From IMG/VR virus record IMGVR_UViG_3300005532_000244, positions 1 to 64,000 of that record: a DNA stretch of 64,000 bases. One strand, written 5' to 3'. Shown in pieces: positions 4,671 through 60,286 of this stretch. The notes beneath the pieces are model-generated. The model did no database searches and had not been told where the DNA came from. It saw nothing but the letters and a program-made list of their open reading frames with translations. The stretch is from a virus. A program made the position numbers and the translations under genes. Numbering within the stretch: position 1 is the first letter of the stretch; each line of letters starts with the position of its first letter.

Positions 4671-5125
4671 CACGCGACCTTCCTGTGCTGCTCGCCGTGG
4701 TGCGTCGGGCAGAGCCAACGCACCTCGAGCGGCTTTGAGTAGTCGTCATGGTGAGCCTGGGCATTCGACGCGCCACAGACTTCGCACGGCTGGCGCTGCA
4801 CGTGGCCTGCCTTGACGTGGTAGTGGAGCAACTTCTGCGCCCGGTTCTTGACCCGGTGTGTCTTCTTCCATGAACGCTTGCTCGCGCGCTCTCGTTCTCT
4901 CTGCGTCCCGGTGAAGACCGCACGCCGGGCCCGCTTCGCAGCCTTCCGGTCTTCAGAGCGTCCACGCTCGCGGTCGTACGCCTGCACCTTCTCGAGGCGT
5001 CGCGCGCGCGACCGGATCGCAATCGCCTTCACCTTCTCCGCGTTCCGCGCGTAGTAGCCGCGCATGTACTCGCGCCGCTTGCATTTCGCGCATGTCCCGC
5101 ATTCGCACGTCGGCCGCGGCGCCAT
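4670..5125 (-). CDS. HNH-type nuclease with zinc finger
   Basis: Encodes 151 residues. The N-terminal half is Arg/Lys-rich with CECGTCAKC. The C-terminal domain carries CEVCG, AHHDDYSKPLEVRWLC and PTHHGEQH, the beta-beta-alpha-metal HNH arrangement with a structural zinc (two CxxC-type pairs). It probably nicks or cuts DNA. It sits between the Cas4-like nuclease and small genes, with TGATG overlap at the start (5125). Possible roles are recombination, packaging or homing. Confidence 0.8.
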   Translation of the reverse strand: MAPRPTCECGTCAKCKRREYMRGYYARNAEKVKAIAIRSRARRLEKVQAYDRERGRSEDRKAAKRARRAVFTGTQRERERASKRSWKKTHRVKNRAQKLLHYHVKAGHVQRQPCEVCGASNAQAHHDDYSKPLEVRWLCPTHHGEQHRKVA

Positions 5126-6153
5126 CAGAATGGGACTTCTCCGAAATCGTGCTCGTCGAGGAGCGGCTGGTCGCTGACCTTCTTCACGGTCAGCGTCTCG
5201 TAGCTGCAGGGGGCGACCGTGTAGCCGGCCCGGTTGACGGTGTTGCGCTTCAGCACGAGCGGGCCGACCTCGTATTCGCCGGGGTCGCGCAGGAAGTCCT
5301 CGGGCGCGTGGCCGAGCGTGTCGGTGAGCTCGGCCTTGATCTGCTTCTCGAGCAGCTCGACGCCTTTCAGGGTGCGCGTGTCGCGGAGCGTCGCGATCGC
5401 GCGGTCCATGCCCTCCTCGGCGAGCGCTTCCGCGACGAGGACGGTGTCGACCTTCGACCCGTTGAGGCTGTGCTTGATCAGCGAGACCTCGTACAGCTGG
5501 CGAGCGAGTCGGATCACGTCTTCGGTCTCGACGCGCGGAAGCTCGGGCTGCTCCCAGCCCTGGAAGCAGTGCTCGATGAACGGGCACAGGTGCGAGCGGC
5601 CGTCGGAGGGCTTGCCGCAGACGCGTTCGGGCGGCTCGTCGCTGAGGACGCCGTCGAGGAGCGCCTGCGCGCGCGCCTGAACCTCGCCGCGCAGCGCCTC
5701 GTCGAGGGTGACGGTGAGGATCCGCTCGTTCAGGTCGCGGTCGAGCACGACCAGGGCGCCGGTGTCGCCGGCGTCGTCGTCGAAGAAGATCTCGCCGGCG
5801 AGCTGGATCAAGTCGTGGTCGGTTGGCGCGCCGGCGAAGTGCGACTTGACCTCGACAGGCTGCGCGAGCGGGACGATGAACGCGTCGGTGTGGAGCTCGC
5901 CGAGCGGCAGGCCCTCGTTCGGCCACGGCACCGCCTTCTGTGTGCGGAGGTTCTTGCGTCCCCACCGCTTGCGGAGCCGCTCGACGTACCACTTTTCGTC
6001 CATGCGGCCGCGCTCGAAGCGACGCTGTGTCTCTTCGTCGGGCTCTTCGGGGTCGACGCCCTGGAACGCGTAGAACGCTTGCCGGGGGCAGCGCGCCGCC
6101 ATGCTCCACCGGGTAGCGCCCTTCAAGCGGTCGCGCGCCGACGTCGCGGTCAC
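5125..6153 (-). CDS. Cas4/RecB-like PD-(D/E)XK exonuclease
   Basis: Encodes 342 residues. An early Cys (RCPRQAFY), a nuclease core (LHTDAF with Asp, then PVEVKSH with Glu and Lys) and a late cluster ending CPFIEHCF match the Cas4/AddB-like plan in which four cysteines hold an iron-sulfur cluster. It probably resects DNA ends to give single strands for the adjacent RecT. The GTG at 6153 is chosen for its GTGA overlap with the upstream HNH gene; a GTG at 6189 is possible. No cas genes or repeats are present, so this is phage recombination, not CRISPR adaptation. Confidence 0.82.
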   Translation of the reverse strand: MTATSARDRLKGATRWSMAARCPRQAFYAFQGVDPEEPDEETQRRFERGRMDEKWYVERLRKRWGRKNLRTQKAVPWPNEGLPLGELHTDAFIVPLAQPVEVKSHFAGAPTDHDLIQLAGEIFFDDDAGDTGALVVLDRDLNERILTVTLDEALRGEVQARAQALLDGVLSDEPPERVCGKPSDGRSHLCPFIEHCFQGWEQPELPRVETEDVIRLARQLYEVSLIKHSLNGSKVDTVLVAEALAEEGMDRAIATLRDTRTLKGVELLEKQIKAELTDTLGHAPEDFLRDPGEYEVGPLVLKRNTVNRAGYTVAPCSYETLTVKKVSDQPLLDEHDFGEVPF

Positions 6154-19893: not shown

Positions 19894-22800
19894 GTGGGCA
19901 GGATCTCCCAAGCGCTCGTCCCCGTCACCCGCACGCCGCGCGCTGTCACCGTGGTCGAGCAGCAGCGGTCCGCGGGCCCGATGGGCGTCGGCCTGATCAA
20001 GTGGGCGGTCGGCAACGGCCTCGCACCGCTCGATCTCGCCAAGGCCGTCGAGCGCGAAGCGGCACGCACCACCGATATCCGCGACCTCGCCGTCCGGCTC
20101 GCCGGCCCCGACCCGACGATGGGCGCACCGTGGGCGAGCTTCGACGGCAACCGGCTGACCGGCGCGCAGATGGGGCCGGGCCAGCCGGCGACACCGTTCC
20201 CTCTGGGCGGCGACCCGCGCCAGTTCCAATACCGCGTCGGCTGGAACTACCCCTCCCCGCCCGACACCGACCGCGGCGTCGACGGCGAGCTGCTGCGCGT
20301 CCTCGCCGACAGCTTCGACCTGCTCCGGTTGTGCATCGAGATCCGCAAGAACGACATGTGCCACCTCGACTGGGACGTAATCCCGACCGAGAAGAACCGG
20401 TCGAAGCGCGAGCAGTGGTTGAAAGACAACGCCGGCGAGCTCGAGCAGATCAAGCAGTTCTTCGAGTGGCCCGAGGCCTACGTCACCCAGGACGCCGCCG
20501 GCCACTGGGTGCGCCGCGGCAAGGTCCGCTTCGATGTCTGGCTCGGCGCCCTGCTCGAGGACTTCTTCGTCGGCGACTGGCTGACGATCTGGCCCAGGCA
20601 GCTGCATAACGGCGCCACGGTCGCGCTTGACCGCGTCGACGGCATGAACATCAAGCCGCTGCTTGACCTCGACGGCCGCACACCGGAGCCGCCGATGCCC
20701 GCCTACCAGCACTACCTGTACGGTGTGCCGCGGGCGTCGTTCACGCTCGACGAGCTGCTCTACCGGCCGCGGACTGTCCGCAACCACACCCCGTTCGGGT
20801 TCAGCCATGTCGAGCAGATGCTCGTGCTCGTCAACCTCGCGTTGCGCTTCCAGATGTGGGAGACGCAGGCGTACACCGAGTCGGCGCTGCCGCTCGGCCT
20901 GCTCGAGTTCCCCGAGAACTTCTCGCCCGACCAGATCGAGGCGGTCGTGGAGACGCTCAACCAGGCGATCTCGGGGCTCGCCGGGGAGCGGCAGAAGTTC
21001 CACGGCGTGCCGTCCGGGACGAAGTGGAACGCGATCAAGCCGTTCGAGTGGGACCAGTCGTTCGCGCAGTACCTCGTCGAGTACACGGCCGCGATGTTCC
21101 GGCTGAACGCGATGAAGCTCGGGTTTATGCCCGGCCGCGGCAGCGGCGGCCAGGGCCTCGGCGGCAAGGGCTTCTCCGAGCAGCAGTCCGAGAACGACGA
21201 GAACAAGTCGACGATCCCGGACGCCCGCTGGATCGAGGGGTTGATGAACGAGGTGATCCAGCGGTACTTCAACCGCACCGACGTCGAGTTCGTCTTCACC
21301 GAGCTGCAGAGCGACGACGAGCAGTCGTCGATCGACGCGGACAAGGAGGCGATCTTCGCCGGGTTGAAGTCGTGGGATCAGGCGCTCGAGGAGCGCGGCG
21401 AGGAACCGGTGGGGATCTCGGAGCCGTTCCTGATGGCGCCGAACGGGATCATCTATTCGGTCTCCGACATTCAAGCGATTCAGGATCCGGCGTCGAACAA
21501 GGAGTACGAGCGGGCGCAGGCGCCGGGGCTGCCGATCTGGTCGGACCCTGACGCGGAGCCGGAGCCGGCACCGTTCACAGCTGGTGGCCTCCACGGCGGT
21601 CCGTCCGTGCCGCCGCTGGGCTCGGGCAGCGCCGACGGCGGAGACGTGCCGCAGCGTCAGCCGTCAGGCGCGCCCGGGCAGGCCACCGACAGGTCGGGCT
21701 CGCGGGGAGCGGCGCCTCGCGAGCCCGGCTCATCGGCTACTGGAAACGCAGATGCAAGCGACCGTTCAAGTAGCGCTGCGAGTAAGGCGGAGAAGTTCGA
21801 CACGACCTCCGGCTTCCAGCCGCGGCCGACGCTCGACCCGCGCGGCGTGCAGGACGAGCTCCGCCGCTGGAAGCGCAAGAGCGTCAAGGCGTGGCGGAAC
21901 GGCAAGCGCGACGTCGCCTTCGACACCGAGATCGTGCCGGAGACGCTGAAGGCGGAGCTGCTCGGCGAGCTCGCGAAGGCCGACGACGTGCTCGACGTCC
22001 GCGTCGCGTTCGACCATGCGATCGAGAAGGCCGCCGACATGAAGCATCCGATGGGGCAGGCCGGGCTCGAGTGGGCGAACTACCGGCACGCCGAGGAGCT
22101 CGAGCGCTCGTGCGGCACCTGCGCGTTCTTCCACCGTCAAGACGGCGGCCTCTCGACGTGCTCCATGTTCGACGTGCTCGTCGACGGCGACTTCACGTGC
22201 GAGGAGTGGCGCGGCCGCGTTTCGCAAAAAGATTCGCGTAACTCCGAGACGACGCACGCCGGCCTCGTCGTACGCGCCGCCGACACCGGCCGCGTGCTCA
22301 TGCTGCAGCGCTCGATCAAGGACGAAGCCGACCCCGCGCGCGGCACCTGGGAGTTCCCCGGCGGCGGCCTCGAGCCCGGCGAGACGCCGCTCGAGGGCGC
22401 GATCCGCGAGTGGCAGGAAGAGACCGGCGTGCAGCTGCCGCCGGGAACGTTGCACGGCTCCTGGAAGAACGGCATCTACGAGGGCCACGTCTACGTCGTC
22501 CCGTCCGAGCAGGACGTGCCGTTGAACGTCGACGCGGAGAACCGCACGGTCGCGAACCCCGACGATCCCGACGGCGACGACGCGGAGACGCTCGCCTGGT
22601 GGGCGCCCTCAGAGGCGCGCACGAACCCGGCGCTACGGCCCGAGTGCGAACTGTGCGACTGGGACATGATCGACGGCGCCGTGCCGGGCGCGCAGTTCAA
22701 GCTCGCCGGTGTCCTCGTCGACCTCGCGAAAGCCGCTGCGCCGTCCGACGGCGACACCGACCGGGAGAAGCGGATCAAGCAGCTCGCCGCGGTCGCCGGC

Positions 22801-23562
22801 GCAGCGCTCGCAAGCCATGCGGTCGGCGTCTACGGGCAGAAGGTCAAGCTCGGCCGGCAGACCAACGACCTCGTCGGCAAACTCGAAGACCACTACCGGT
22901 CAGCGCTCGAAGCTGGCTCAGGCGACGCCGCGAGCGCGCACCGGATCGACACGCTCGACCAGAACACGATCAACGCGATCGCCCGCCAGCGCGCGGAAGC
23001 GCAGCGGCCCGCCGCACGCACCCTCGTCGAGCAGGCAGCGAAAACCGGGAGCGTGAAGCCGCAGGCGATCAACGCGCTCGCCCGCGGCGCGAAGGCCGCC
23101 TACGAGGAAGGCTTCGGTCGCACCGTCACCCAGGCAGCACCCGACGCGCTCGCGGTGTGGCGGACGCTCGCGACCGACCCGTGCCAGCCGTGCGAGGAAC
23201 GCGACGGGCAGGTGTTCACGCTCAACGAGCTGCCGGGCTGGCCCGGCGACGGCGACTTCGGCGGCGATCTATGCGAAGGCGGCCCGAACGACCGCTGCGA
23301 GCTCGAGTGGCGGATGCCGGCGGAGGAGCCCGACGAGGAATACGTGGCGACCGCGGAGCTTGAGAAGACCGACGCCGCGGTACCGGTGGCGCCATCCGCG
23401 GGCGAGCATTTCGCTGAGCGTGTCGTCGGCGCGCTTGAGCGGCTCGCCGACAAACCAGCGGAAGAGCACCACCACCACGTGACCGTCGAGCAGCCGCCGC
23501 GCGGACCTGTCCGCGTCGAGAAGACCAGGGACGGGATGCGGCTGATCCCGGAGGAGGACTGA
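19894..23562 (+). CDS. Portal protein fused to NUDIX and MuF-like domains
   Basis: Encodes 1222 residues, over twice a usual portal. Residues 1 to ~600 are portal (DLLRLCIEIRKNDM; a long helix region near 310-430; HVEQMLVLVNLALRFQMWE). After a Gly/Pro-rich linker, a Cys-rich module near 740 (CGTCAFF, CSMFD, FTCEEW). Residues ~790-930 form a NUDIX domain with an intact box GX5EX7REXXEEXG at ~824-846. Residues ~1000-1140 resemble the MuF head-morphogenesis domain (AYEEGFGRTV, DPCQPCEERDGQVF). GTG at 19894 with GGAGAAG upstream. The portal is the DNA gate; MuF proteins enter the capsid; the NUDIX part would hydrolyse a nucleoside-diphosphate-linked substrate. Confidence 0.9.
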   Translation: MGRISQALVPVTRTPRAVTVVEQQRSAGPMGVGLIKWAVGNGLAPLDLAKAVEREAARTTDIRDLAVRLAGPDPTMGAPWASFDGNRLTGAQMGPGQPATPFPLGGDPRQFQYRVGWNYPSPPDTDRGVDGELLRVLADSFDLLRLCIEIRKNDMCHLDWDVIPTEKNRSKREQWLKDNAGELEQIKQFFEWPEAYVTQDAAGHWVRRGKVRFDVWLGALLEDFFVGDWLTIWPRQLHNGATVALDRVDGMNIKPLLDLDGRTPEPPMPAYQHYLYGVPRASFTLDELLYRPRTVRNHTPFGFSHVEQMLVLVNLALRFQMWETQAYTESALPLGLLEFPENFSPDQIEAVVETLNQAISGLAGERQKFHGVPSGTKWNAIKPFEWDQSFAQYLVEYTAAMFRLNAMKLGFMPGRGSGGQGLGGKGFSEQQSENDENKSTIPDARWIEGLMNEVIQRYFNRTDVEFVFTELQSDDEQSSIDADKEAIFAGLKSWDQALEERGEEPVGISEPFLMAPNGIIYSVSDIQAIQDPASNKEYERAQAPGLPIWSDPDAEPEPAPFTAGGLHGGPSVPPLGSGSADGGDVPQRQPSGAPGQATDRSGSRGAAPREPGSSATGNADASDRSSSAASKAEKFDTTSGFQPRPTLDPRGVQDELRRWKRKSVKAWRNGKRDVAFDTEIVPETLKAELLGELAKADDVLDVRVAFDHAIEKAADMKHPMGQAGLEWANYRHAEELERSCGTCAFFHRQDGGLSTCSMFDVLVDGDFTCEEWRGRVSQKDSRNSETTHAGLVVRAADTGRVLMLQRSIKDEADPARGTWEFPGGGLEPGETPLEGAIREWQEETGVQLPPGTLHGSWKNGIYEGHVYVVPSEQDVPLNVDAENRTVANPDDPDGDDAETLAWWAPSEARTNPALRPECELCDWDMIDGAVPGAQFKLAGVLVDLAKAAAPSDGDTDREKRIKQLAAVAGAALASHAVGVYGQKVKLGRQTNDLVGKLEDHYRSALEAGSGDAASAHRIDTLDQNTINAIARQRAEAQRPAARTLVEQAAKTGSVKPQAINALARGAKAAYEEGFGRTVTQAAPDALAVWRTLATDPCQPCEERDGQVFTLNELPGWPGDGDFGGDLCEGGPNDRCELEWRMPAEEPDEEYVATAELEKTDAAVPVAPSAGEHFAERVVGALERLADKPAEEHHHHVTVEQPPRGPVRVEKTRDGMRLIPEED

Positions 23563-23563
23563 G

Positions 23564-24016
23564 ATGGCGGCATCCGCACGCGCCTACGGCAACATGCTCG
23601 CGAAGGTGTTCGGGTCGACGTCCACCGACAAGGTCGACTGGGTCAACGACACGATCATGGTCGGCCTGCTCGGCGCCGGCTACACCCCGAACGTCGACAC
23701 CCACATCTACTGGTCCGACGTAAGCGCGAACGAGATCGCCGCCGGCGGCGGGTACGCCTCCGGCGGACTCGCGCTCGCAGGTAAGAGCATCGTCTACGAC
23801 TCCTCCGCGCACACGGTCCGGCTGAAGGCGGGCACGTCACAGTGGCTGACCTCGACGATCTCCTACCGGTACGCGGCGATCTACAAGAGCACCGGCACCG
23901 GGTCGACGTCGCTGCTGCTCGGCTACTTCGACCCGGGCGGCACCGAGCAAGACACCGGCGGCACCCTCTCAATCGTCTGGGACGCGACCAACGGAATCTT
24001 CGCATTCGCGGTCTGA
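23564..24016 (+). CDS. Beta-rich virion-type protein
   Basis: Encodes 150 residues, Gly/Ser/Thr-rich with little charge: DTIMVGLLGAGYTPNVDTHI, TISYRYAAIYKSTGTGS, GTLSIVWDATNGIFAF. The pattern is common in phage genes near the head module and is probably structural, but no homologue can be named. Confidence 0.6.
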   Translation: MAASARAYGNMLAKVFGSTSTDKVDWVNDTIMVGLLGAGYTPNVDTHIYWSDVSANEIAAGGGYASGGLALAGKSIVYDSSAHTVRLKAGTSQWLTSTISYRYAAIYKSTGTGSTSLLLGYFDPGGTEQDTGGTLSIVWDATNGIFAFAV

Positions 24017-24019
24017 GCT

Positions 24020-24571
24020 GTGAAACAGACTTTCGAAGCCCCAGAGGCGTACCCGCCGCTCGCGAACCTCGCCGCGGTCACCGGTGTCACCGCGGAGACG
24101 AACCTGTGGACGCCGGCGCAGTGGACGCCGATCCCAGCGAACTACGCGTCGGCGGGGCAGCAGTGGATCATCGACGCGTTCGGCGTGCTCACCTATCCGT
24201 CGTCGACGCCGGGAACGACCGCGTTCACCGCGAGGATCGGCACCTCGTCGACGCCGAGCTCGAACACGATCCTCGGCGCCGCGTCCACAGCGGCGGCCGG
24301 CACGACGCAGACCGGCGTGCAGTGGCAGCTGAAGGGTCTGCTCACCATCCGCACGGTCGGGCTGCCCGGCGCGAACTCGACCGTGATCTTCCAAGGACAC
24401 TTCGAGTGTCCGCTCGGCCTGCAGGCGGCCGGCTCCTCCGGCGGGGTGATCTTCGGTGGCACCGCGACCGTCGACCTGTCCGTCGCGCAGGGCCTCGCGA
24501 TCTCGGTGACGCCGTCGGTGACCGGCCAGTCGTTCACGCCGCAGATGATCGCGTGGAGGTCGCTCGGATGA
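24020..24571 (+). CDS. Beta-rich virion-type protein
   Basis: Encodes 183 residues, Thr/Ser/Ala-rich and poor in charge (TAFTARIGTSSTPSSNTI; VQWQLKGLLTIRTVGLPG). GTG start at 24020. Similar in character to its neighbour and likely a virion component. Function unknown. Confidence 0.6.
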   Translation: MKQTFEAPEAYPPLANLAAVTGVTAETNLWTPAQWTPIPANYASAGQQWIIDAFGVLTYPSSTPGTTAFTARIGTSSTPSSNTILGAASTAAAGTTQTGVQWQLKGLLTIRTVGLPGANSTVIFQGHFECPLGLQAAGSSGGVIFGGTATVDLSVAQGLAISVTPSVTGQSFTPQMIAWRSLG

Positions 24572-25356
24572 TCCGCGGCACCGGCTTCCACCGCCCTTAC
24601 GGGGCGCGCGCGCTCGCCGCGACCCGCGCGACCCTGCCGGTCGACAACCTGGTCGACTTCACTGGGATCACCGCGACGGTCGCCGCGGCCGCGGTCGTCC
24701 CCGCCGTCGAGACCGACGCCGCCGCCGCCGCTGCCGCGGCCGCCGTCTCGGGGCCGGTCGCGACCCCCGAAGTCGACGCGGCCGCGGCGGCCGCCGCCGT
24801 GACCGTCTCAGGGAAGGTTGCAACGCCGCAGAACGCCGTCTCCGCCCCGGCAGCCCCGGTGGCCGTGTCGTTCGCCGCACCGACGGCTGAGCAGGACGCG
24901 GCGGCTCCTGTCGCCACGATCCAAGTCAGCCTCCGTCTGCCAACGGCCGAGGTGGACTGGGCGGCGATCGCGGCGCAGACGGTGCTGAGCGTGCAGCTGC
25001 CGGTGCCGCTGATCGTGCTGCCCGCGCCGCCGTCACCGGTCGAGGCGCAGGCACCGACACCGGTGGCCGAAGCCGACACCGCCGCCCCGGTGGCGCCCGT
25101 CACGGCGACCGCCCCGGCGGCGACAGCCGCCGTCGATGCTGCCGCACCCGCAGCGGCGGTGCAGGCCTCGGCGGCACAGCCTGCGTTCTCGCCCGCGCCC
25201 GTCACCGACGCGGCACCCGCTGCCGAACCGGCACCGCCGGTCGGCGCGCCGTCGGGTGGCCGCTCGAGCACCCCGAACTCGGCGCACGCCTGGTCGGGTG
25301 AGGACGACGACGCCGTAGCAGCGCTGCTCGCCGCGCACGCGTTCGAGCTCGTCTAG
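24568..25356 (+). CDS. Ala/Pro/Val repeat protein
   Basis: Encodes 262 residues. After a short N-terminus (MIRGTGFHRPYGARALAATR) the centre is made of degenerate units of about 25 residues around PTAExDxAAPVAxVxVS, rich in Ala, Pro and Val. The C-terminus (SAHAWSGEDDDAVAALLAAH) looks ordered. ATG overlaps the previous stop. An elongated fibre or linker is plausible; no function can be given. Confidence 0.55.
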   Translation: MIRGTGFHRPYGARALAATRATLPVDNLVDFTGITATVAAAAVVPAVETDAAAAAAAAAVSGPVATPEVDAAAAAAAVTVSGKVATPQNAVSAPAAPVAVSFAAPTAEQDAAAPVATIQVSLRLPTAEVDWAAIAAQTVLSVQLPVPLIVLPAPPSPVEAQAPTPVAEADTAAPVAPVTATAPAATAAVDAAAPAAAVQASAAQPAFSPAPVTDAAPAAEPAPPVGAPSGGRSSTPNSAHAWSGEDDDAVAALLAAHAFELV

Positions 25357-26701: not shown

Positions 26702-27090
26702 TGTCTGACAATCTGAACCTCCGCGACGCGAACGGGCAGGCGTTCCAGCTCCGCACGAAAGACCTGTCCGGGTCGGGGCTGCACGCGTACTTCTCGATGG
26801 TCGTGACGGCGGTCCCGACCCCGGTCGGGACCGCGCAGACGGTTGCGTTGTCGACGACCGCTGACACGACGATCGTCGTTCCGGCGGGCGGCACGCACGC
26901 CCAGTTGACCGTCGACTCGGGCGGCGGCGACATGCGCTACTGGGAGAACGGCACCTCGCCGTCGGCGACGGCGGGCTGGGACGTTCCGGCCGGCAACGCG
27001 GCCGAGTTGACGAATCTCGCGAACGTGAAGATGCGGTCGACGTCGGGGACGCCGAACGTGCAGTACGCGTGTAGGCGGTACGACCAGTGA
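26701..27090 (+). CDS. Small beta-rich virion-type protein
   Basis: Encodes 129 residues: MSDNLNLRDANGQAFQLRTK, TTIVVPAGGTHAQLTVDSGG and NLANVKMRSTSGTPNVQYAC. Features match short head or fibre accessory proteins. Ends overlapping the next GTG. Confidence 0.55.
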   Translation: MSDNLNLRDANGQAFQLRTKDLSGSGLHAYFSMVVTAVPTPVGTAQTVALSTTADTTIVVPAGGTHAQLTVDSGGGDMRYWENGTSPSATAGWDVPAGNAAELTNLANVKMRSTSGTPNVQYACRRYDQ

Positions 27091-28874
27091 TCTTTCGGCG
27101 CCGGTTCGGGGCGACGTTGGTCGCGATCGCTGTGGGGCTTGGGGTTGCGGGCGGCGTCGGCGGCGGCGTCGTGCTGTTCAATCCGCAGCCGGCCGCCGCT
27201 GCTGTGACGGCAAATCTCTTCGCCGTCGCGCCCGGGGCAGGTGTCGGCACAGCCAACTGTGCAGGCGACGCGACCGCGCGCACGTATGCGTACGCGCTCG
27301 CGAACGAGCCGAACATGATCTGCGCGTATGGGACGCGCGCCGATCTCGGCTACTCAGCAACCTCGTGGGACAACGCGTGCAAGGCGGCGTCGCTGATCAA
27401 TACGACCGGGTTGACCGTCGGTGTTGAGCCGGGGAACTACACACGCGAGTCGAGCGACGGCGACTTCATGAAGTCGACCGATTGCTCCGGCGGCAAAGGC
27501 GCGGCCGTCAACCCGAACTGCGGCGAGCAGGTGCCTACCTGTGCGGGCACCGGCACGACCGCCGCCTGGATCAAATACGTCCCCGCAAGCTCAACCGCCT
27601 GCCCGAATGTGCATTGGGTGGAGGACAGCCCGACCGCGCAGTCGGCCGGTTTCTTCTTCTTCAACCAGCAGTTCCACATCGTCATCCAGGGGTCGTGCTT
27701 CGACCTCGACTCGACCCTCCTCTACTACAGCCTCTCCGGTGTAGCTGGCGAGATCCAAGTCGTCGGCGACTCGCCGACGAACCCGATGCACCTGTACGGC
27801 ATCGAGTTGAAAGGCCCGAAGGATGTTCTCTTCAAGAACATCAACTACGGGCCCAACATCCAGTGCGGCAAGAACGACCCGAACGTGCCGGCCGCACTAC
27901 GGTGCGACCCGAACGGGCCGCAGTTCGAGGCGAAGCTCGCGAGCATGGGCACCGCGACCTCGTCGTGCAGCGCGAACAACACCGCAGCCTGCGGCGGCTT
28001 CTTCGTCAACGAGCAGTTCGTTGAGCCGTTCTTCCACCAGGGCCAGTTCAGCTTCGACGGCAGCACGCTGTACGAGAACGTCCGCATCCAAAACTTCATG
28101 GTCCACGACGCGCAGAGCACGGGCGTCGGCTCCGGGTTCCATCCGGGCTGCTTCATGTTCGACGGCGTCAACGGCGACTCGTCGCGGGCAGCAACACTCG
28201 GCAACATCATCTTCGACCACGTCTCCTGCGAACGGCAGACCGGCGAGGGCTGGCAGCTCCAGGACGGCGGGGTGATCGTCGAGAACTCGTACTTCTCGTG
28301 TCCGACCTATTCGGTCGGCGACGCGAGCGCGAACCCGACGGGGAAGTGGGATCTGTGCAACCCGGCGAAGGCGGCGCTGGGACTCGGCTGCAAGACATCA
28401 ACGCAGAACGGCTGCACCCAGACGAACGTGCTGATCCGGTATGACACCTTCGATTGCGGCAACTCGGCGTGTGTGCGCGTGCCGACATGGTCCGACGGCG
28501 GCTTCGGCAACTACAGCAGCGTTCGCTTCGTCGCCGACATCTTCATGAACTCGCTCACCGGGAACGCTGGCGCGCCCTGCTCGATCACCGGGGTGACGTT
28601 CTCGACCAACGCGTACGCGCCCGGTGTGTCTCAGTGCGGGTCGGGGAACACGACTCTCAGCTCCGGAGACCCGTTCACGCAGTCGAGTATTGCTACGCCG
28701 GGCGATTCGTGGTCGGCGTCGGCGCTGCTGAATTTGCATCTCGCGAGCAACAGCGCCGGTGCATCGGTGCCGACGGTGAATCCGGCGGTGCTCGGCAGCG
28801 ATTACCAGGTCGACCATGACGCGGATGGCAACCCTCGCGGGTCAACCTCTACGCACGTCGGGGCATACAACTAG
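27087..28874 (+). CDS. Secreted Cys-rich beta-helix-like protein
   Basis: Encodes 595 residues. Basic n-region and long hydrophobic core (MIFRRRFGATLVAIAVGLGV) indicate a signal peptide or anchor. The mature protein has many cysteines and repeated short strands ending in Asn or Gly (VLFKNINYGPNIQC, NIIFDHVSCERQTGEGWQLQ, VLIRYDTFDC), the look of a right-handed parallel beta-helix as in pectate lyases. A signal peptide is unexpected in a tail spike, so export by the lysogen is an alternative. Wobble positions are visibly less GC-biased than in neighbours, hinting at separate acquisition. Confidence 0.65.
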   Translation: MIFRRRFGATLVAIAVGLGVAGGVGGGVVLFNPQPAAAAVTANLFAVAPGAGVGTANCAGDATARTYAYALANEPNMICAYGTRADLGYSATSWDNACKAASLINTTGLTVGVEPGNYTRESSDGDFMKSTDCSGGKGAAVNPNCGEQVPTCAGTGTTAAWIKYVPASSTACPNVHWVEDSPTAQSAGFFFFNQQFHIVIQGSCFDLDSTLLYYSLSGVAGEIQVVGDSPTNPMHLYGIELKGPKDVLFKNINYGPNIQCGKNDPNVPAALRCDPNGPQFEAKLASMGTATSSCSANNTAACGGFFVNEQFVEPFFHQGQFSFDGSTLYENVRIQNFMVHDAQSTGVGSGFHPGCFMFDGVNGDSSRAATLGNIIFDHVSCERQTGEGWQLQDGGVIVENSYFSCPTYSVGDASANPTGKWDLCNPAKAALGLGCKTSTQNGCTQTNVLIRYDTFDCGNSACVRVPTWSDGGFGNYSSVRFVADIFMNSLTGNAGAPCSITGVTFSTNAYAPGVSQCGSGNTTLSSGDPFTQSSIATPGDSWSASALLNLHLASNSAGASVPTVNPAVLGSDYQVDHDADGNPRGSTSTHVGAYN

Positions 28875-28881
28875 TAGCTAG

Positions 28882-29649
28882 CTAGTGCTTCGTCGCGATG
28901 TACAAGAACCGTCCCTCACTGCCGAGCCCATACCGCCCGACCTCCTCGTGGCTGAACGCCGCGAGATAGTCACGCCTGCGGACCTCGAATCCGGCAGCGC
29001 GCACCCGGTCAGAGAAGTCAGCGCCGTAGACGCGAACATGGTCTGTCGCACCGAACGCTTGCAGTCGCTTTCGCGGGTCGGTGATCGTCGGATCCTCAAA
29101 CGTTGCTGGCTGGTCTTCGTGGACGGGATGCGGCAGGATCGCCTGTCCGCCTGGTCGCAGTACGCGGTGCATCTCGGCGAGAGCGGCCGCGTCGTCTTCG
29201 ACGTGCTCAAGGACGTGGCTACAGATGACAAGGTCGAACGAGCCGGAGTCGAACGGCATCGCCGTGACGTCGCCGACGATTGCGCCCTCATAGGCGGGGC
29301 TCGCATCCATCGAGACGTAGCGATCGCCGACGAGCCTGGAGAGCCGTTCCCGCAGGCCGTCTTCCGGAGCAATGTGCAGCACGTCCAAGGTTCCGGTAGT
29401 GACTGCGGTGTCGTTTCGGAGGTAGAGCGCAAGCAGCCGGTGGCGCTGCAGGCCGAGGCAGTTCGGGCAGAGCGAGTCGACGCCGTGCCGCGGGATGAAG
29501 CCTCGGAATGTGTGGTCGCAGCAGGGGCATTCGACCGTGACGCCCCGGTAGAGCACGGGCAGTGTTGCTTTGGCGACTCGGCGCACGCTGGGGCTGTAGG
29601 TGAAGAGCAGCGCTGGCAGACGCGAGTCTGTCTTCGCGAAGACCGGCAC
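28882..29649 (-). CDS. SAM-dependent methyltransferase with zinc ribbon
   Basis: Encodes 255 residues. The N-terminal zinc ribbon (ECPCCDHTF and LCPNCL) precedes a class I methyltransferase: DVLHIAPEDGLRERL, VSMDASPAYEG, MPFDSGSFDLVICSHVLEHV and LRPGGQAILPHP. It resembles small-molecule or sugar methylases more than DNA methylases. GTG start with AAAGGA upstream. It is on the minus strand inside the late operon and converges with the beta-helix gene, 7 bases apart with stop codons in several frames (TAGCTAGCTA), so it has its own promoter, typical of a moron. Confidence 0.85.
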   Translation of the reverse strand: MPVFAKTDSRLPALLFTYSPSVRRVAKATLPVLYRGVTVECPCCDHTFRGFIPRHGVDSLCPNCLGLQRHRLLALYLRNDTAVTTGTLDVLHIAPEDGLRERLSRLVGDRYVSMDASPAYEGAIVGDVTAMPFDSGSFDLVICSHVLEHVEDDAAALAEMHRVLRPGGQAILPHPVHEDQPATFEDPTITDPRKRLQAFGATDHVRVYGADFSDRVRAAGFEVRRRDYLAAFSHEEVGRYGLGSEGRFLYIATKH

Positions 29650-29711
29650 GGCGTTGATCCTTTCGGTCTTCGTGGGCCGCTGTCAACCCGCCATGAGGAT
29701 AGGAGACGGGC

Positions 29712-32108
29712 ATGGCTGTAGCGGTCGAAGGCGGCGCCCGGAAGGACATCGCCACGGCAGGATCGGTCTCGTCGCTCTCTGGCGCATCGAAGACGTACAC
29801 GAACGGCGTCGTCTATCTGGTCTGGGTGACGAGTTGGATCAGCAGCGGCGCGCCGGCTGCCCCGTCGAGCGTGACGGTCGGGACGATGACGTTCGCGAAG
29901 GTCACTAGCTCCGATCATGTCTTCGAGATCGCTAATGCAGCCTCCGACTGTCGGCAGACGCTCTGGGCCGCCGTCGGTGACGGCAGCACAGGCGCGCTCA
30001 CGGTCAGCTGGGGCGGCGTCACACAGAGCGCGGCGTTCTTCGAGGTCGCCGGGTTCACGGGCGCGAAGACAACGAACGGCGGCCTCGATGCCGTACGCCA
30101 GGTCGTGTCCGGGCAAAACAGCACGGCGAACGCCTCCGTGACGCTCGCCGCGCTCCAGGACGCCAACTCAATGGTGTGCGGCCACGTCGCTTTGCAGACA
30201 ACGAGCGCATTGTCCGCAGGCTCAGGCTTCACAGCGTTTTCGCAGTTCGGTATTTCCGGGCTGACGAACGGCAAGGAGCATTCCGAGTACGAATCCAACG
30301 TCACAGCCGTGGCGTGGTCGAACTCCGCGCCCGCAGTGAACTGGGGCGCGATTGCATGGGAGGTCGCAGCCCCCACGGGCGCGAAGACGCAGACGCTCGC
30401 CGGGCAGGAGTCCGAAACCGCGGCGGAGCGTCGCGCGGTTGGGCACAAGGCGGCGGGTTCGGAGTCGCAGGCGGCGAAGGAAGGCCGCGCGGTCACGCAC
30501 AAGTGGATGGTCGCGCAAGGACAGCAGGCGCGCGCAATACGAGGCCGGTTCTTGAGGGAACTGCTCGCGTTCATCGTCCGCGTCGCGAAGCCAGGCGCGA
30601 TCCAGCATCTCGTCCAGGCGATCACCGCGACCGAAGGCCAGGCCGCGCAGCTTGTGCGCGCGACACGGATCCGTCGCCTCTGGACGGTCGCGGTCGCCCG
30701 GCCGGGCAGCCACCTGCTCACCTCGCTGCTCGCAACCGTCGGCGAGACCGGCAGCCTCCGACGCAACGCCCGCGCGTTCAAACGCTGGACGGTGACACTC
30801 GCCGCGAACATCGCGAAAAGCCGCAAAGCACAGATCCTCGCGTTCGCGGAAACCGCCGCCGCGACGCTCCGCCGCCGCACCGCAACAACGAAACGCGTCA
30901 CCGTCGGCGACACCGCACGGCTCGTCCGGCACCCGGGCAAAACGTTCCTGCTGATCCTGAACGGGATCCCGCCGCTGATGGCCGGCGGCGTCCAGGTCGG
31001 CGCCCGCTTCAGCCGCCGTGTGACGCACCGGGCGGCGACGGTGCAGCAGGCGCTGCTCGCCGGCTACGCGACGGTCAAGACGTCGTTCGCGCAGCACTTC
31101 ACGCAGGCGGTGCAGGCGACCGAGGTGACCGTGAAGCGGTTCGCGCGCAGCGCCCGCGTGTCGCGGAGGTTCACGATCGCCGAGAGCCCGCGGGCAAGAC
31201 GCGCCGCGCAGCTCGCGCGCTCGGTGGTGCAGGGCAGCCGTGCCGTCGCGGCGCGCGCGGCGCGCGTCCCGGTCACGGTTGCAGTCTCGACAGCCTCGAC
31301 GGTCGCCCGGCGCGTGCAGGCGATCCGGGCGGTCGCGCTCGGCGTCGGCCCCATGATCACGAAGACGATCCGCGTCCCGTTGCGGGCCTCGGTGAGCCGC
31401 GCGGTGACGTTCACGAAGTTCATCCCGCACCGGATCGCCACCACGGTCGGCGACACCACCACCCTCCGCCGGTTCTCGCCGCGGACACTTGCCGCCACGG
31501 TGTTTGCGCCGGCGACGCTGCGGCGGCGGACGGCGAAGGCGGTGCGGTGGGTTGAGACAGTCCGGCCGCAGGCGACCCTGCAGAACACGAAGCTGATCGT
31601 GCTCGCCGCGGTCGAAGGGCTCGGCACAGTGTTCGCGCGCGCGTCCCGGCACAGAAGCCCCGCCACCGAGGTCGCCCAGCCGACGCTCAGCCGTGGCGTA
31701 CGGATCTCGCGGCGCGTCGCGCAGGCGACGGCGGGCGGCTACCGGCGCGCAGGCGGGGCGGTCATCTCAGTCGCCGTCTCCGCGCAGGCACTGCTGCGGC
31801 GCGCGAGCGCCCATGCGGAAGCCGCCCAGCTCGCCGAGACCGCCACCGCCGGCAAGCAGGTCGGCGGGGTCACACTCGCTGGCCGCATCGCGCAGACTGC
31901 TGTGTATCGGCGCGGGTTCAGGGTCGCGATCCGGGCGCTCGAGCGGCCGGTCTCGGCGCTTCTGACGCTGCTGCAGCGCGTGTTCCGGCAGATCACCGTC
32001 ATCCCTGGCACCCCGTACCTCGACTGGCAAGCCGGCGCCGCGTCCACTGACTGGGCGGTCTCCGCCGCAACCGGCAACTGGCAGACCGGAACTCCGTACC
32101 TGAGCTGA
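29712..32108 (+). CDS. Arg-rich degenerate-repeat giant protein
   Basis: Encodes 798 residues. Residues 1 to ~225 are a beta-rich virion-type domain (VTVGTMTFAKVTSSDHVFEI, ALTVSWGGVTQSAAFFEV). Residues ~230-760 contain many degenerate repeats of 25-45 residues built on patterns such as TVGDTxxLRR and RRxTVAES, extremely rich in Arg and Ala with almost no acidic residues. The last 25 residues (YLDWQAGAASTDWAVSAATG) look like a separate cap. ATG with GGAGA upstream. It may bind DNA or polyanionic surface polymer; function unknown. Confidence 0.6.
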   Translation: MAVAVEGGARKDIATAGSVSSLSGASKTYTNGVVYLVWVTSWISSGAPAAPSSVTVGTMTFAKVTSSDHVFEIANAASDCRQTLWAAVGDGSTGALTVSWGGVTQSAAFFEVAGFTGAKTTNGGLDAVRQVVSGQNSTANASVTLAALQDANSMVCGHVALQTTSALSAGSGFTAFSQFGISGLTNGKEHSEYESNVTAVAWSNSAPAVNWGAIAWEVAAPTGAKTQTLAGQESETAAERRAVGHKAAGSESQAAKEGRAVTHKWMVAQGQQARAIRGRFLRELLAFIVRVAKPGAIQHLVQAITATEGQAAQLVRATRIRRLWTVAVARPGSHLLTSLLATVGETGSLRRNARAFKRWTVTLAANIAKSRKAQILAFAETAAATLRRRTATTKRVTVGDTARLVRHPGKTFLLILNGIPPLMAGGVQVGARFSRRVTHRAATVQQALLAGYATVKTSFAQHFTQAVQATEVTVKRFARSARVSRRFTIAESPRARRAAQLARSVVQGSRAVAARAARVPVTVAVSTASTVARRVQAIRAVALGVGPMITKTIRVPLRASVSRAVTFTKFIPHRIATTVGDTTTLRRFSPRTLAATVFAPATLRRRTAKAVRWVETVRPQATLQNTKLIVLAAVEGLGTVFARASRHRSPATEVAQPTLSRGVRISRRVAQATAGGYRRAGGAVISVAVSAQALLRRASAHAEAAQLAETATAGKQVGGVTLAGRIAQTAVYRRGFRVAIRALERPVSALLTLLQRVFRQITVIPGTPYLDWQAGAASTDWAVSAATGNWQTGTPYLS

Positions 32109-32118
32109 GGCGACCGCC

Positions 32119-32412
32119 GTGCAGATGTCCATGCTCGACACCCGGTACCTCAACGTGCCGGTCACGGTGTCGAAGAATCCGACCAACGACGTCGTCCAAT
32201 TCGCGTTCAAGATCGGCCCGTCGCGGCCGTCGAACTCTGACTGGCAGACAGGTGCGTGGCAGACGCCCGAATCGCCGTATGTCGCGCAGCTGCTGATCGG
32301 CCCGGAGAACGGCGGCTACGTGCTCGCGCCCGGCATCTACGCGATCTGGCTGAAGATAATCGACAATCCCGAGATCCCCGTGCTGACGGTCGGGTCGCTG
32401 ACGATCTTCTGA
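32119..32412 (+). CDS. Small beta-sandwich protein
   Basis: Encodes 97 residues: NVPVTVSKNPTNDVVQFAFK and VLAPGIYAIWLKIIDNPEIP, a clear alternating beta pattern. GTG at 32119 has GAGG upstream; ATG at 32125 is possible. Probably virion-associated. Confidence 0.6.
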   Translation: MQMSMLDTRYLNVPVTVSKNPTNDVVQFAFKIGPSRPSNSDWQTGAWQTPESPYVAQLLIGPENGGYVLAPGIYAIWLKIIDNPEIPVLTVGSLTIF

Positions 32413-32999
32413 TGAGCGTCACGCTCACAGTCGCGGTACCGACGCTCGGCCGCTCAAGCCTGGCACGGACGCTTGCGCCGATCGCGCGCGCGGTCGGCCC
32501 CGACGACGCAGTGCTCGTGATGGCCGACGGCGGCGGCGACGTCGCCGCGGCCCGGTTCATCTACCGGGAGGTCGCGACGCGGAACTGGCGGTTTGAGGTG
32601 CTCCCGTCGAGTCCGTGGGGGCAGGCGCACCGCAACTGGGCGCTCCAGCAGGCGGAGACGACGCACGTGTGGTCGCTCAACGATGACGACACACCGACGT
32701 CGGCCGCGGTCGCCGCGATCCGCGCGCACGCCCACCCACGGCGGGCGACGATCTTCAAGGCGCGGTTCCCCGACGGCACGAGCTTCTGGGGGCAGCCCGC
32801 CGAGTATCGCGAGCCGGTGATTTGGCGTGACCCGTCTGTCCGGCTCGGCAACGTCGACGCCGCGATGATCGTCGCGCCGGCGGGTTGCGCGTCGCGGTGG
32901 GGTGAGCGGTACGAGGGCGACTTCGACTTCGCGGCCGCGCTCGTCGACGAGTTCGGCGCGCCGGTGTGGCGCGACGAAACGGTCGTTCTCAAAGGCTGA
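32412..32999 (+). CDS. Family-2-like glycosyltransferase
   Basis: Encodes 195 residues. TVAVPTLGRSSLARTL is the nucleotide-sugar binding start of a GT-A fold; the LNDDDTPTSAAVAAI segment supplies the metal-binding Asp cluster. C-terminal RYEGDFDFAAALVDEFGAPV completes a compact domain. No membrane anchor. Probably glycosylates a virion protein or host surface polymer. Overlaps both neighbours by a single base (TGATG). Confidence 0.7.
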   Translation: MSVTLTVAVPTLGRSSLARTLAPIARAVGPDDAVLVMADGGGDVAAARFIYREVATRNWRFEVLPSSPWGQAHRNWALQQAETTHVWSLNDDDTPTSAAVAAIRAHAHPRRATIFKARFPDGTSFWGQPAEYREPVIWRDPSVRLGNVDAAMIVAPAGCASRWGERYEGDFDFAAALVDEFGAPVWRDETVVLKG

Positions 33000-33517
33000 T
33001 GCACGTCGTCGTCGGCTACACGAACCTCCGCCCGGAGGTTCAAGAGGCGCTGGACCGCCACGCCGCCGCCGTCGAGGTCGTCTACCAGGACTGCGCCCAC
33101 TCGAACGAGACCTACCACGATCTCCTCGACGAGCACTGGCAGGCCGGCACCGACTTCGCCGTTGTCGAGCACGACATCGTCATCGACGAGCGCGTCGTCC
33201 CCACGTTTGAGCGCTGCCCGGAGCCGTGGTGCGGCTTCGGCTACGAGCTTGCCGTCGGCTACCGCGTCGCGCTCGGGTGCACCCGCTTCCGCGCCGCGCT
33301 CATGGACGCGGTGCCCGATCTGTTCGAGCTCACACAGACCGAGACGCAATCCGGTGTGCCGCGGAAGGCGTGGTACCGGCTCGACGCCCGCGTCGACCAG
33401 ATCTTGCGCGAGCACGGCTACACGCCGCACCTGCACATGCCGCCCGTGAAGCACTTGAACGCGGTGCAGCGGCTCGCCGAACCCGTTCCCGTGTATGCCG
33501 CCGGAGAGGACCGCTGA
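32999..33517 (+). CDS. Glycosyltransferase-like GT-A protein
   Basis: Encodes 172 residues. N-terminal VVVGYTNLRPEVQEAL and FAVVEHDIVIDERVVPTFER (EHD in place of DxD), then PWCGFGYELAVGYRVALGCT resemble GT-A-fold sugar transferases. It follows another glycosyltransferase-like gene, so the two probably act on one product. Weaker match than its neighbour. Confidence 0.55.
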   Translation: MHVVVGYTNLRPEVQEALDRHAAAVEVVYQDCAHSNETYHDLLDEHWQAGTDFAVVEHDIVIDERVVPTFERCPEPWCGFGYELAVGYRVALGCTRFRAALMDAVPDLFELTQTETQSGVPRKAWYRLDARVDQILREHGYTPHLHMPPVKHLNAVQRLAEPVPVYAAGEDR

Positions 33518-35682
33518 TGCACGACGTCGACCTGACTCCCGACCTCTACTTCGCCGCGGAGATCGTCAAGGCCGAGACGCAGCCCGACGGGTCGGTGCTC
33601 GTCTACGGCTGCCCCGCGAACCCCGAGACGCTCGACAACGACGACCAGATCGCCGACGCCGGCTGGCTGAAGGAGGCGCTGCCCGCGTGGTTCCACTCGT
33701 ACGGGAACCTGCGCGAGATGCACCAGCCGTCCGCGGTCGGGACGGCGAAGAAACTCACCTGGGCCGACGACAAGCCGGAGATCGTCGCGAAGGTCGTCGA
33801 CCCGATCGCCGCGAAGAAGGTGCGCGAGGGCGTCTACAAGGCCTTCTCGATCGGCGTCCAAAAGCCCGAACTCGCCTACGACCGCAACGCCGCGGGCGGC
33901 CGGATCGTCGGCGGGAAGATCGTCGAGACCTCGCTGGTCGACCGGCCGTCGATCCCGGGTTCCGACATCGCGTCGTTCAAGGCCGCGGTGCAGTCGGGCT
34001 TCATGCTCTGCAAGGCCGTCGGTGTGAACGAGTGGCTCGACACGCAGATGGGCGTCGTGCTCGAAGACACCGCGAAGGCCTCGGAGGCGGACGTCGAGAA
34101 GCGCGACTTCGATCGCAACGTCGGCGGTGGCGTCGACCGCGATCAACTCCCGGCCGAGGACTTCGCCGGTCGGAACCGCAGTTTCCCGATCGACAAGCCG
34201 GGCGACGTCTCAGACGCCGCGTCGAGCATCGGTCGGGCGGGCGAGGACAACTACTCGCCCGAGCAGTTGAAGGAAAACATCATCCGGATCGCCCGACGCA
34301 AGGGACCGGCCTACGTCGCCGAGTTGCCCGAGTCGTGGAAGGGCGACGGCGACAAGGCCGCCAGCGTCGACGACGGGAAGTCCGTCGAGGCGCCGATCGA
34401 CAGCGCGAAGGAGGCATCACCCACGATGAACGACGAGAAGACCGTCGACGCCGAGAAGGGCGTGGACAGCGACTTCGCCGGCGGCGAGAAGGCGGCTGAG
34501 GCGGAGACGTCGAAGGGCGACGATCGCGAAGACACCGACCTCGGCGAGACCGCGAAGACCGACGAGGCCGACGAGGCCGACAAGAGCGACGAGGCGGAGA
34601 AGCTCGCCGAGCTCGCGAAGGACGCGTCGGCGTACTGCCCGAAGTGCGCGTCGCTGCAGAAGGTCGCGGACGGCCGGCTCGAAAAGATCGGTGCCGTCGA
34701 CGTGCTGCTCGGAAAGTGCGACGCCGGCCACGAGCTGCGCAAGGTGCTGCAGACGCCGTTGACCAAGAGCGACGACGCGGAGAAGAGCGGCGACGCCGAG
34801 AAGGCCGACGACGCGGAGAAGAGCGACGAGATCGCCAAGGACAGCACGATGAACGACTCCGATCTCGGCGCCGACGCCGACGGTGACGATGACGGCGACA
34901 AGTCCGCCGGCAGCGACGCGGAGAAGGCGCTCGCCGCGGCGGTCGAGAAGGTCGACGACGAAGCGGTCAAGGCCGCGGTCGCCGAACTGCTCAAGGACGC
35001 CGGCATCGACCTTGGCAAGGTAGGCCGCAAGATGAAGCAGCAGCGGCTCGATCGGCTCACCGCCGCGATCGGCGAGCTGTCGGAGCTCGCGAAGGAGCTC
35101 ACCGCCGACCCGGCCGGCGAGAAGGCCGCGAACGTTGGCGGCCCGACGCAGACCGACGGCGGCTCGAACCTCGCCGCGACGCGGTTCGTGTCGTGCCTGC
35201 GCACGGTGAACGAGCTCGCGCGGCTGCTCGCACCCGGCGACGGCGACTTCGGTCTCTCGACCGACGGCGCCGACACCCAGCTCGACGACACCGTCGCCGC
35301 GCCGATCCGGATCAAGGACCGGATCAACACGAACAGTGACGGCAAGGCCGTCACCCCTGATCTGACGAAGGCGGAGATCATCGACGAGGCAACCAAGCTC
35401 GTCGCGCCCGAGCTCGCGAAGTCGGTCGCTCAGGAGATCGGCAGGGCGTTCAGCCCGCTGGTGGAGCGGCTCGAGAAGGTCGAGCACACGCTAGTGCCGG
35501 CGCGGCCGCCCGTCCTGATCGAGGCTGACCGCCGACACGTCTTGAACGCCGACGCGACGAAGGCGGCCGAGCAGGAGGAGGCGCTGAAGGCCGACCTCGA
35601 GAAGTCGCTCGGCGGGCTCAGCGACCAGCAGCGCGAGCAGGTGCTCGCGTTCGCGCTGTCGCAGTCGCGCCGCGGCCGCTAG
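33517..35682 (+). CDS. XkdF-like prohead protease fused to acidic scaffold
   Basis: Encodes 721 residues. Residues ~1-170 match XkdF-type phage serine proteases: YGCPANPETLDNDDQIADAG, FHSYGNLREMHQPSAVG, VYKAFSIGVQKPEL and VETSLVDRPSIPG. Residues ~240-650 are a Lys/Asp/Glu/Ala-rich scaffold with DEAD/AEKSD-type repeats, interrupted near 373-410 by a zinc ribbon (YCPKCASLQK, KCDAGHELRK). The C-terminus (LGGLSDQQREQVLAFAL) probably contacts capsid. The protease would clear the scaffold during head maturation. It directly precedes the capsid gene. Confidence 0.82.
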   Translation: MHDVDLTPDLYFAAEIVKAETQPDGSVLVYGCPANPETLDNDDQIADAGWLKEALPAWFHSYGNLREMHQPSAVGTAKKLTWADDKPEIVAKVVDPIAAKKVREGVYKAFSIGVQKPELAYDRNAAGGRIVGGKIVETSLVDRPSIPGSDIASFKAAVQSGFMLCKAVGVNEWLDTQMGVVLEDTAKASEADVEKRDFDRNVGGGVDRDQLPAEDFAGRNRSFPIDKPGDVSDAASSIGRAGEDNYSPEQLKENIIRIARRKGPAYVAELPESWKGDGDKAASVDDGKSVEAPIDSAKEASPTMNDEKTVDAEKGVDSDFAGGEKAAEAETSKGDDREDTDLGETAKTDEADEADKSDEAEKLAELAKDASAYCPKCASLQKVADGRLEKIGAVDVLLGKCDAGHELRKVLQTPLTKSDDAEKSGDAEKADDAEKSDEIAKDSTMNDSDLGADADGDDDGDKSAGSDAEKALAAAVEKVDDEAVKAAVAELLKDAGIDLGKVGRKMKQQRLDRLTAAIGELSELAKELTADPAGEKAANVGGPTQTDGGSNLAATRFVSCLRTVNELARLLAPGDGDFGLSTDGADTQLDDTVAAPIRIKDRINTNSDGKAVTPDLTKAEIIDEATKLVAPELAKSVAQEIGRAFSPLVERLEKVEHTLVPARPPVLIEADRRHVLNADATKAAEQEEALKADLEKSLGGLSDQQREQVLAFALSQSRRGR

Positions 35683-47953: not shown

Positions 47954-48160
47954 GTGGCGCAGGAGGACATCGTCCCGCAGCTGCTCGCCGAGATCTTCAA
48001 TCGTGCGATCCCGGACCCGCTCGACGACAACAGCCCCTTGAACTCGTTCTCGGCGCCGGTCGACGGCGTGTCGCTCAGCGACACGGTGACCACAACGACC
48101 GCGACCGGGCCGTTCAAGTACGGCGTCGCGAAGTACGCCCGCTCCACCTACAAGCAGTGA
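47954..48160 (+). CDS. Small tail protein
   Basis: Encodes 68 residues: IVPQLLAEIFNRAIPDPLDD and SLSDTVTTTTATGPFKYGVA. GTG start with AGGAGG upstream. Short connector-like proteins are common between tail hub and fibre genes. Unknown role. Confidence 0.6.
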   Translation: MAQEDIVPQLLAEIFNRAIPDPLDDNSPLNSFSAPVDGVSLSDTVTTTTATGPFKYGVAKYARSTYKQ

Positions 48161-60071: not shown

Positions 60072-60286
60072 CACGCAGCCGCCTTGTAGAACCGGCCGTG
60101 CTTGGCGATCAGGTCGTGGCAGCGCGCGATGTCGTCGTCGTTCAAGGCGTCGGCGAACTCGCGGGCGCCGAGCTCGCTGGCGAAGACGCAGATCGTGTCG
60201 GGAAGCGTCTTCGGGTAGGGGCGGCCGGCGAGGGTGACGAGGAAGCCGAGCTCGTGCCGCTCGATCTGGGCGCGCGAGCTCGTCAT
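60071..60286 (-). CDS. 71-residue small protein
   Basis: MTSSRAQIERHELGFLVTLA then TLPDTICVFASELGAREFAD and a helical end. ATG at 60286 overlaps the stop of the large methyltransferase. Unknown function; possibly an accessory of the methylase. Confidence 0.55.
   Translation of the reverse strand: MTSSRAQIERHELGFLVTLAGRPYPKTLPDTICVFASELGAREFADALNDDDIARCHDLIAKHGRFYKAAA

Follow-up and report, generated by a model that had tools for sequence, protein, structure and literature searches.

A divergent arginine-rich repeat protein encoded in a viral genome probably belongs to an uncharacterised phage module

A 798-residue protein with a strongly basic tandem repeat (P0001; positions 29,712-32,108, plus strand) was analysed within a window of 64,000 nucleotides, which makes up most of the 65,364-base virus record IMGVR_UViG_3300005532_000244 and has a GC content of 64-73% per 2-kb block. 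P0001 appears to belong to an uncharacterised phage module, from whose other members it diverges; the module consists of a variable N-terminal part, a degenerate repeat of 18-20 residues, a C-terminal tail rich in tryptophan and proline (W/P-rich tail) and a small partner. The open frame, the repeat period, the charge, the similarity of the tail, the partner and the recurrence of the arrangement are computed properties. With a probability of about 0.55, P0001 is an arm on the virion surface of a tailed phage, serving in decoration or adhesion. The parts of the gene and its neighbours are:

19,894-23,562: portal (phrog_2662, E 1e-60); the same ORF carries a NUDIX match
23,564-24,016, plus strand: first gene after the portal (phrog_644, function unknown, E 6e-25)
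24,571-25,356, plus strand: second repeat protein, net acidic (net charge -14), with a 20-residue period (z 6.9 at lag 20, z 5.5 at lag 40)
28,882-29,649, minus strand: SAM-dependent methyltransferase-like gene (matched by several methyltransferase families of PHROGs, best E 2.2e-05)
about 29,701-29,705, plus strand: AGGAG ribosome-binding site, read directly, 6 bases 5' of the P0001 ATG
29,712-30,386, plus strand: P0001 head, residues 1-225, acidic (pI 5.2) and non-repetitive
30,387-31,991, plus strand: P0001 repeat region, residues 226-760, an Arg/Ala-rich degenerate repeat of about 18 residues by lag and Fourier tests
31,992-32,105, plus strand: W-rich C-terminal tail of P0001, residues 761-798, the best match to the tail profile among 606 window ORFs
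32,125-32,412, plus strand: small partner gene, 95 amino acids (possible GTG start at 32,119), with relatives 41-55% identical
32,412-32,999, plus strand: glycosyltransferase-like gene (Pfam Glycos_transf_2, E 0.0043, below the curated cut-off), its ATG overlapping the partner stop by one base
within 33,226-35,682: protease-like ORF (phrog_21715)

By every computed criterion P0001 is a real ORF. Its 798 codons run without interruption behind the AGGAG site, and GC at the three codon positions was 0.66/0.59/0.87, resembling the 0.68/0.47/0.92 of the terminase of the same genome and indicating that the frame bears the coding signature of this genome. Third-position GC was 0.84-0.96 across the repeat region and 0.91-0.96 in the terminase, portal, capsid and tape-measure genes of the window, while for the long overlapping ORFs at 30,176-31,555 (plus strand) and 30,222-31,652 (minus strand) the third positions would fall in low-GC phases. 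The computed evidence thus confirms the 798-residue frame of the original prediction. A promoter scan found none, and one terminator-like site was found, fewer than in shuffled sequence.

The description of a degenerate Arg/Ala repeat following a 225-residue head was borne out. Self-similarity of residues 226-760 peaked at lag 18 (z 5.3) and, doubled, at lag 36 (z 4.0), with the top value reached in 0/2000 shuffles; no period was detected in the head, and its characterisation as beta-rich was not confirmed. The extreme charge also stood, the repeat region having a net charge of +71 and a pI of 12.0. It contains 13.8% Arg and 19.1% Ala (74 Arg, 16 Lys, 2 Asp, 17 Glu), so that acidic residues, said to be almost absent, are indeed few (19 of 535) but not missing. 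Fourier analysis gave a period of 18.3 for the basic residues (power 12.9 against a 95% shuffle limit of 9.6) and of 2.0 for strong hydrophobic residues (power 13.3, limit again 9.6), suggesting that the repeat may form extended strands with one basic patch per unit. Segmentation into units by expectation maximisation scored 239.8 against 236.1 for the best of 20 shuffles, and unit boundaries are therefore fuzzy and the register loose; alignment of overlapping windows was uninformative. Structure prediction, which had been proposed as a check, did give models, but these were too poor to show a fold: AlphaFold placed helices rather than strands in P0001 alone at low confidence (pLDDT 36.5), and for the repeat protein of locus L016, with 12 sequences, strands of roughly 13 residues at 20-residue intervals, also at low confidence (pLDDT 44.5).

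Searches with P0001 itself detected no family. No Pfam match was found up to E 1 and no match to PDB sequences up to E 10, so that no known enzyme or solved fold was matched, and NCBIfam gave only a hit at E 0.47, far below its cut-off. A match to phrog_36259 (E 0.0036, 12.4 bits) was dropped, since two of 14 control genomes also gave a hit in the same search. Within the collections searched, nothing homologous to the entire protein turned up: tblastn against phages with P0001, its head or the second repeat protein returned nothing, and neither did searches of viral contigs with P0001, the major capsid protein alone or the portal. An alignment of the capsid protein (A1) recovered six viral loci and one Sphaerobacter MAG locus, and none of the eight records searched (drawn from these loci and the cultured relatives) contained a P0001 match. 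Of two repeat consensus motifs used as queries, SVGK found nothing and ETDTA found the Streptomyces phage Keanu.

The recurrent arrangement was revealed by the small partner gene, which lies directly downstream of P0001 and is overlooked in an ORF list limited to at least 100 amino acids. Its product identified five loci in viral contigs, and its relatives in L015, L016, L017 and L019 are 41-55% identical to that of the window. An alignment of the five sequences extended the set to 26 loci in all, and a final scan with A6 added no contig. Partner genes were found neither in the phage collection nor in 301 genomes of the phylum of G001, a search run without a positive control. In all 25 loci with upstream sequence the ORF directly before the partner encodes a repeat-type or low-complexity protein, a count in which not every locus is independent (L026 and L027, and L030, L031 and L032, agree in all features listed) and which includes the partial L020 and L021. 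In 15 of these 25 proteins a period of 20 reached the 95% shuffle limit; of the remaining ten, four have other periods (39 in L015, 37 in L020, 9 in L021, 42 in L038), and six short proteins of only about three units each (L019, L023, L030-L032 and L034) fall below the period-20 limit.

Many repeat proteins of the module share a C-terminal tail of the form VGAPYSPWxAGxP...W, and such a tail forms a third part of P0001 that was absent from the original prediction. A profile was built from 14 distinct tails, 17 of the 25 repeat proteins having yielded one by pattern; L015, L020 and L021 had been excluded beforehand and five other proteins did not fit the pattern. With the null2 correction off, P0001 ranked first among the 606 window ORFs (11.2 bits, end to end over residues 761-795), while with null2 on its score in the window search fell to 4.5 bits and was not significant. 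The tail score was matched by 0 of 1000 shuffles, 993 of which were scored, whether null2 was on or off. In pairwise comparisons with the tails of L016, L017 and L019, respectively 2, 31 and 9 of 5000 shuffles scored as well.

P0001 thus has the partner downstream, a W/P-rich tail (with null2 off) and a tandem repeat of 18 residues, and its probable membership of the module rests on these three features, homology of the repeats not being among the grounds. The loci L016, L017, L019, L022 and L024-L040 resemble it in the partner directly downstream, the tandem degenerate repeat and, in most, the W/P tail. They differ from it in the LamG-like head that many of them appear by eye to have, in a 20-residue repeat that is A/T-rich or of the ETAQ type, and in being acidic, except for L035. 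The P0001 head is not such a LamG-like domain (in a global alignment with that of L016, 1302 of 2000 shuffles scored as well), and L015 and L035 also appear by eye to be without one. An ETxAQ-type 20-residue profile gave the P0001 repeat a z of 0.13 against its own shuffles, in a weak test that scored even the repeats of L016 at only z 1.8. The P0001 head resembles that of L015 weakly, 92 of 2000 shuffles scoring equally well, and BLASTP found no similarity between L015 and either the head or the repeat of P0001.

An Arg-rich repeat is shared with P0001 by L015, L035 and L042, the first two of which precede a partner; the L015 repeat is Pro-rich with period 39 and that of L035 has period 20, and neither has the period of 18 found in P0001. 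Whole-protein net charge is positive only in L015 (+41) and L035 (+36) among the 25 proteins, and the repeats of Keanu gp13 carry +37 over 476 residues, indicating that strong basic charge recurs but does not define the module. Relatives of L035 were found at three loci in the viral contigs, L035 included, and at none in phages. L035:8913-9893 and L042:6001-7272 consist almost wholly of Arg/Pro-rich repeats, and the LamG-like head of L042 is encoded by a gene of its own (4945-5514).

A Pfam search with eight proteins of the module gave no family name for it, and no description was found in the open-access literature searched; as searched, the module is without a name in Pfam or NCBIfam. The statement that no family of this architecture was known held for the curated libraries, in which P0001 has no Pfam or accepted NCBIfam match, but the combination of repeat, W/P tail and partner recurs in many phage contigs.

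The surroundings of the module are those of phage structural genes in many loci. Downstream of the partner, 20 of the 26 records have a terminase-like gene at a distance of 1.8-8.9 kb, and 17 of the 26 have a portal gene. A gene like phrog_240 was detected by tblastn near the repeat protein in 11 of 26, upstream or, in L039, downstream, and a relative of L019:8646-9086, which by eye resembles Keanu gp12, in 10 of 26; one or other of these neighbours is present in 20 of 26. L015 (IMGVR_UViG_3300032562_000218) has a portal 28% identical to that of the window (E 4e-45), also over the NUDIX region, and the gene order methyltransferase-like (by eye), glycosyltransferase (2.3e-30), Arg-rich repeat protein, partner, portal. 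Its protease counterpart matches phrog_21715 and a head maturation protease family, and its terminase-like ORF (L015:1966-3831) seems by eye to carry an intein-like insertion.

In the window, P0001 lies between the portal and the protease-like ORF, which are separated by about 9.9 kb of other genes. In four cultured relatives identified through the capsid protein (THSA-485A, MMB025, Polewnik and Sonali) the first protease or capsid gene follows the portal after about 0.5-2.2 kb, going by their own annotations, two of which name no protease. The same inserted block encodes a 595-residue protein (27,087-28,874) whose N-terminus looks by eye like a signal and which matched no family, and the second repeat protein, rich in Ala, Val and Pro, so that one phage encodes both an acidic and a basic repeat protein. 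The glycosyltransferase-like gene had no PHROG match, and its product had no BLASTP match to that of L015. Elsewhere in the window, 60,283-62,142 (minus strand) encodes a C-5 cytosine DNA methylase (Pfam E 3e-14).

Among known systems, gp13 of the Streptomyces phages Keanu and Hiyaa shares the layout of P0001, with a non-repetitive head and, after it, a degenerate repeat of net positive charge whose period is 20 (z 9.6), within a structural gene block. These proteins differ from P0001 in a period of 20 rather than 18, without tblastn similarity between them, with no W-rich tail seen and with no partner in the phage collection. P0001 had no match to phrog_14065 (function unknown), the family of Keanu gp13 and Hiyaa gp13, and by sequence is not placed among these minor tail proteins. 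Viral fibre shafts of the triple beta-spiral type, whose unit is 15 residues, likewise combine alternating hydrophobic residues with a short tandem unit, the P0001 unit being 18 rather than 15.

Several other readings of P0001 were weighed. Condensation of DNA in the capsid had been proposed, and an internal DNA-condensing or DNA-ejection protein whose basic repeat neutralises packaged DNA would accord with a net charge of +71 over 535 residues, a pI of 12 and a gene lying between the portal and the protease-like ORF. However, of the 25 proteins in the corresponding position, 23 carry a negative net charge (-5 to -16), and condensation is therefore doubtful as the common role of the module, favouring an arm with variable repeat chemistry. 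The basic residues are moreover spaced at 18 among alternating hydrophobic residues rather than gathered in one run, and P0001 has an acidic head and a W/P tail that the acidic members share. Such an internal role for P0001 is accordingly quite improbable, and fibre formation and the binding of anionic polymers, both also proposed at the outset, are the best remaining readings. The notion that the gene is a degenerating or non-functional repeat tract, to which the very degenerate units and the lack of a close homologue might point, is very hard to reconcile with 798 open codons of high third-position GC, a preserved period and the presence of tail and partner, and is highly improbable.

It is unlikely that P0001 is secreted or cell-surface cargo, such as a lysogeny or host-surface factor, rather than a structural protein. 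In 8 of the 26 loci, secreted proteins that we take to be GH16-like are encoded upstream, 2.9-4.3 kb from the partner, and the 27,087-28,874 product starts like a secreted protein by eye, but P0001 itself shows no obvious signal peptide by eye, and the phrog_240 neighbour adjoining the module is named 'head protein' by PHROGs in 4 of 4 tested cases, on annotation only. Placement in a tail fibre or tail tip instead of on the capsid is suggested by Hiyaa gp13 and Galactica gp11, both annotated as minor tail proteins. Yet the window has candidate tail-tip genes of its own, the ORFs at 48,157 and 50,427, which follow the tape measure, matching tail-fibre families, and the Keanu gp13 gene lies between the major capsid gene and the head-to-tail adaptor; this placement, too, is unlikely.

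The preferred reading, a virion-surface arm, draws on the partner, the tail and the repeat period, and on a particle context: the portal and protease-like ORF on either side of P0001, the terminase genes near the module, the 'head protein' name of its phrog_240 neighbour, the matching gene content of L015 and the minor tail annotation of Hiyaa gp13. We infer the location on the particle, the fold and the binding as follows. The conserved tail and the partner would fix P0001 to the particle, and the repeat, in which hydrophobic residues alternate and a basic patch recurs every 18 residues, could form a long stalk. The basic patches might then give weak, multivalent contact with anionic host polymers, whether teichoic-type, capsular or extracellular polysaccharide. 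The neighbouring glycosyltransferase-like and methyltransferase-like genes may act to modify virion proteins; according to one report, mycobacteriophages use glycosyltransferases of their own to glycosylate the capsid and the tail tube (PMC12363180), with which the adjacent glycosyltransferase-like gene is compatible.

More tentatively, the module may be widespread, pairing a fixed anchor (W/P tail and partner) with a freely swapped head and repeat chemistry that ranges from acidic Thr/Ala to Arg-rich, with P0001 as an electrostatic arm on anionic polymers that is possibly tuned by phage glycosylation and methylation. If this is true, P0001 would be an extreme case, in which one basic patch every 18 residues holds the particle on polymers of the host surface or matrix. 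In every testable locus (25 of 25) the partner gene points to a repeat protein that is unnamed in the family libraries, and it offers a way to detect rapidly evolving surface arms of phages that escape sequence searches. As the same architecture comes in an acidic and an Arg-rich form, the role of charge in these proteins can now be tested.
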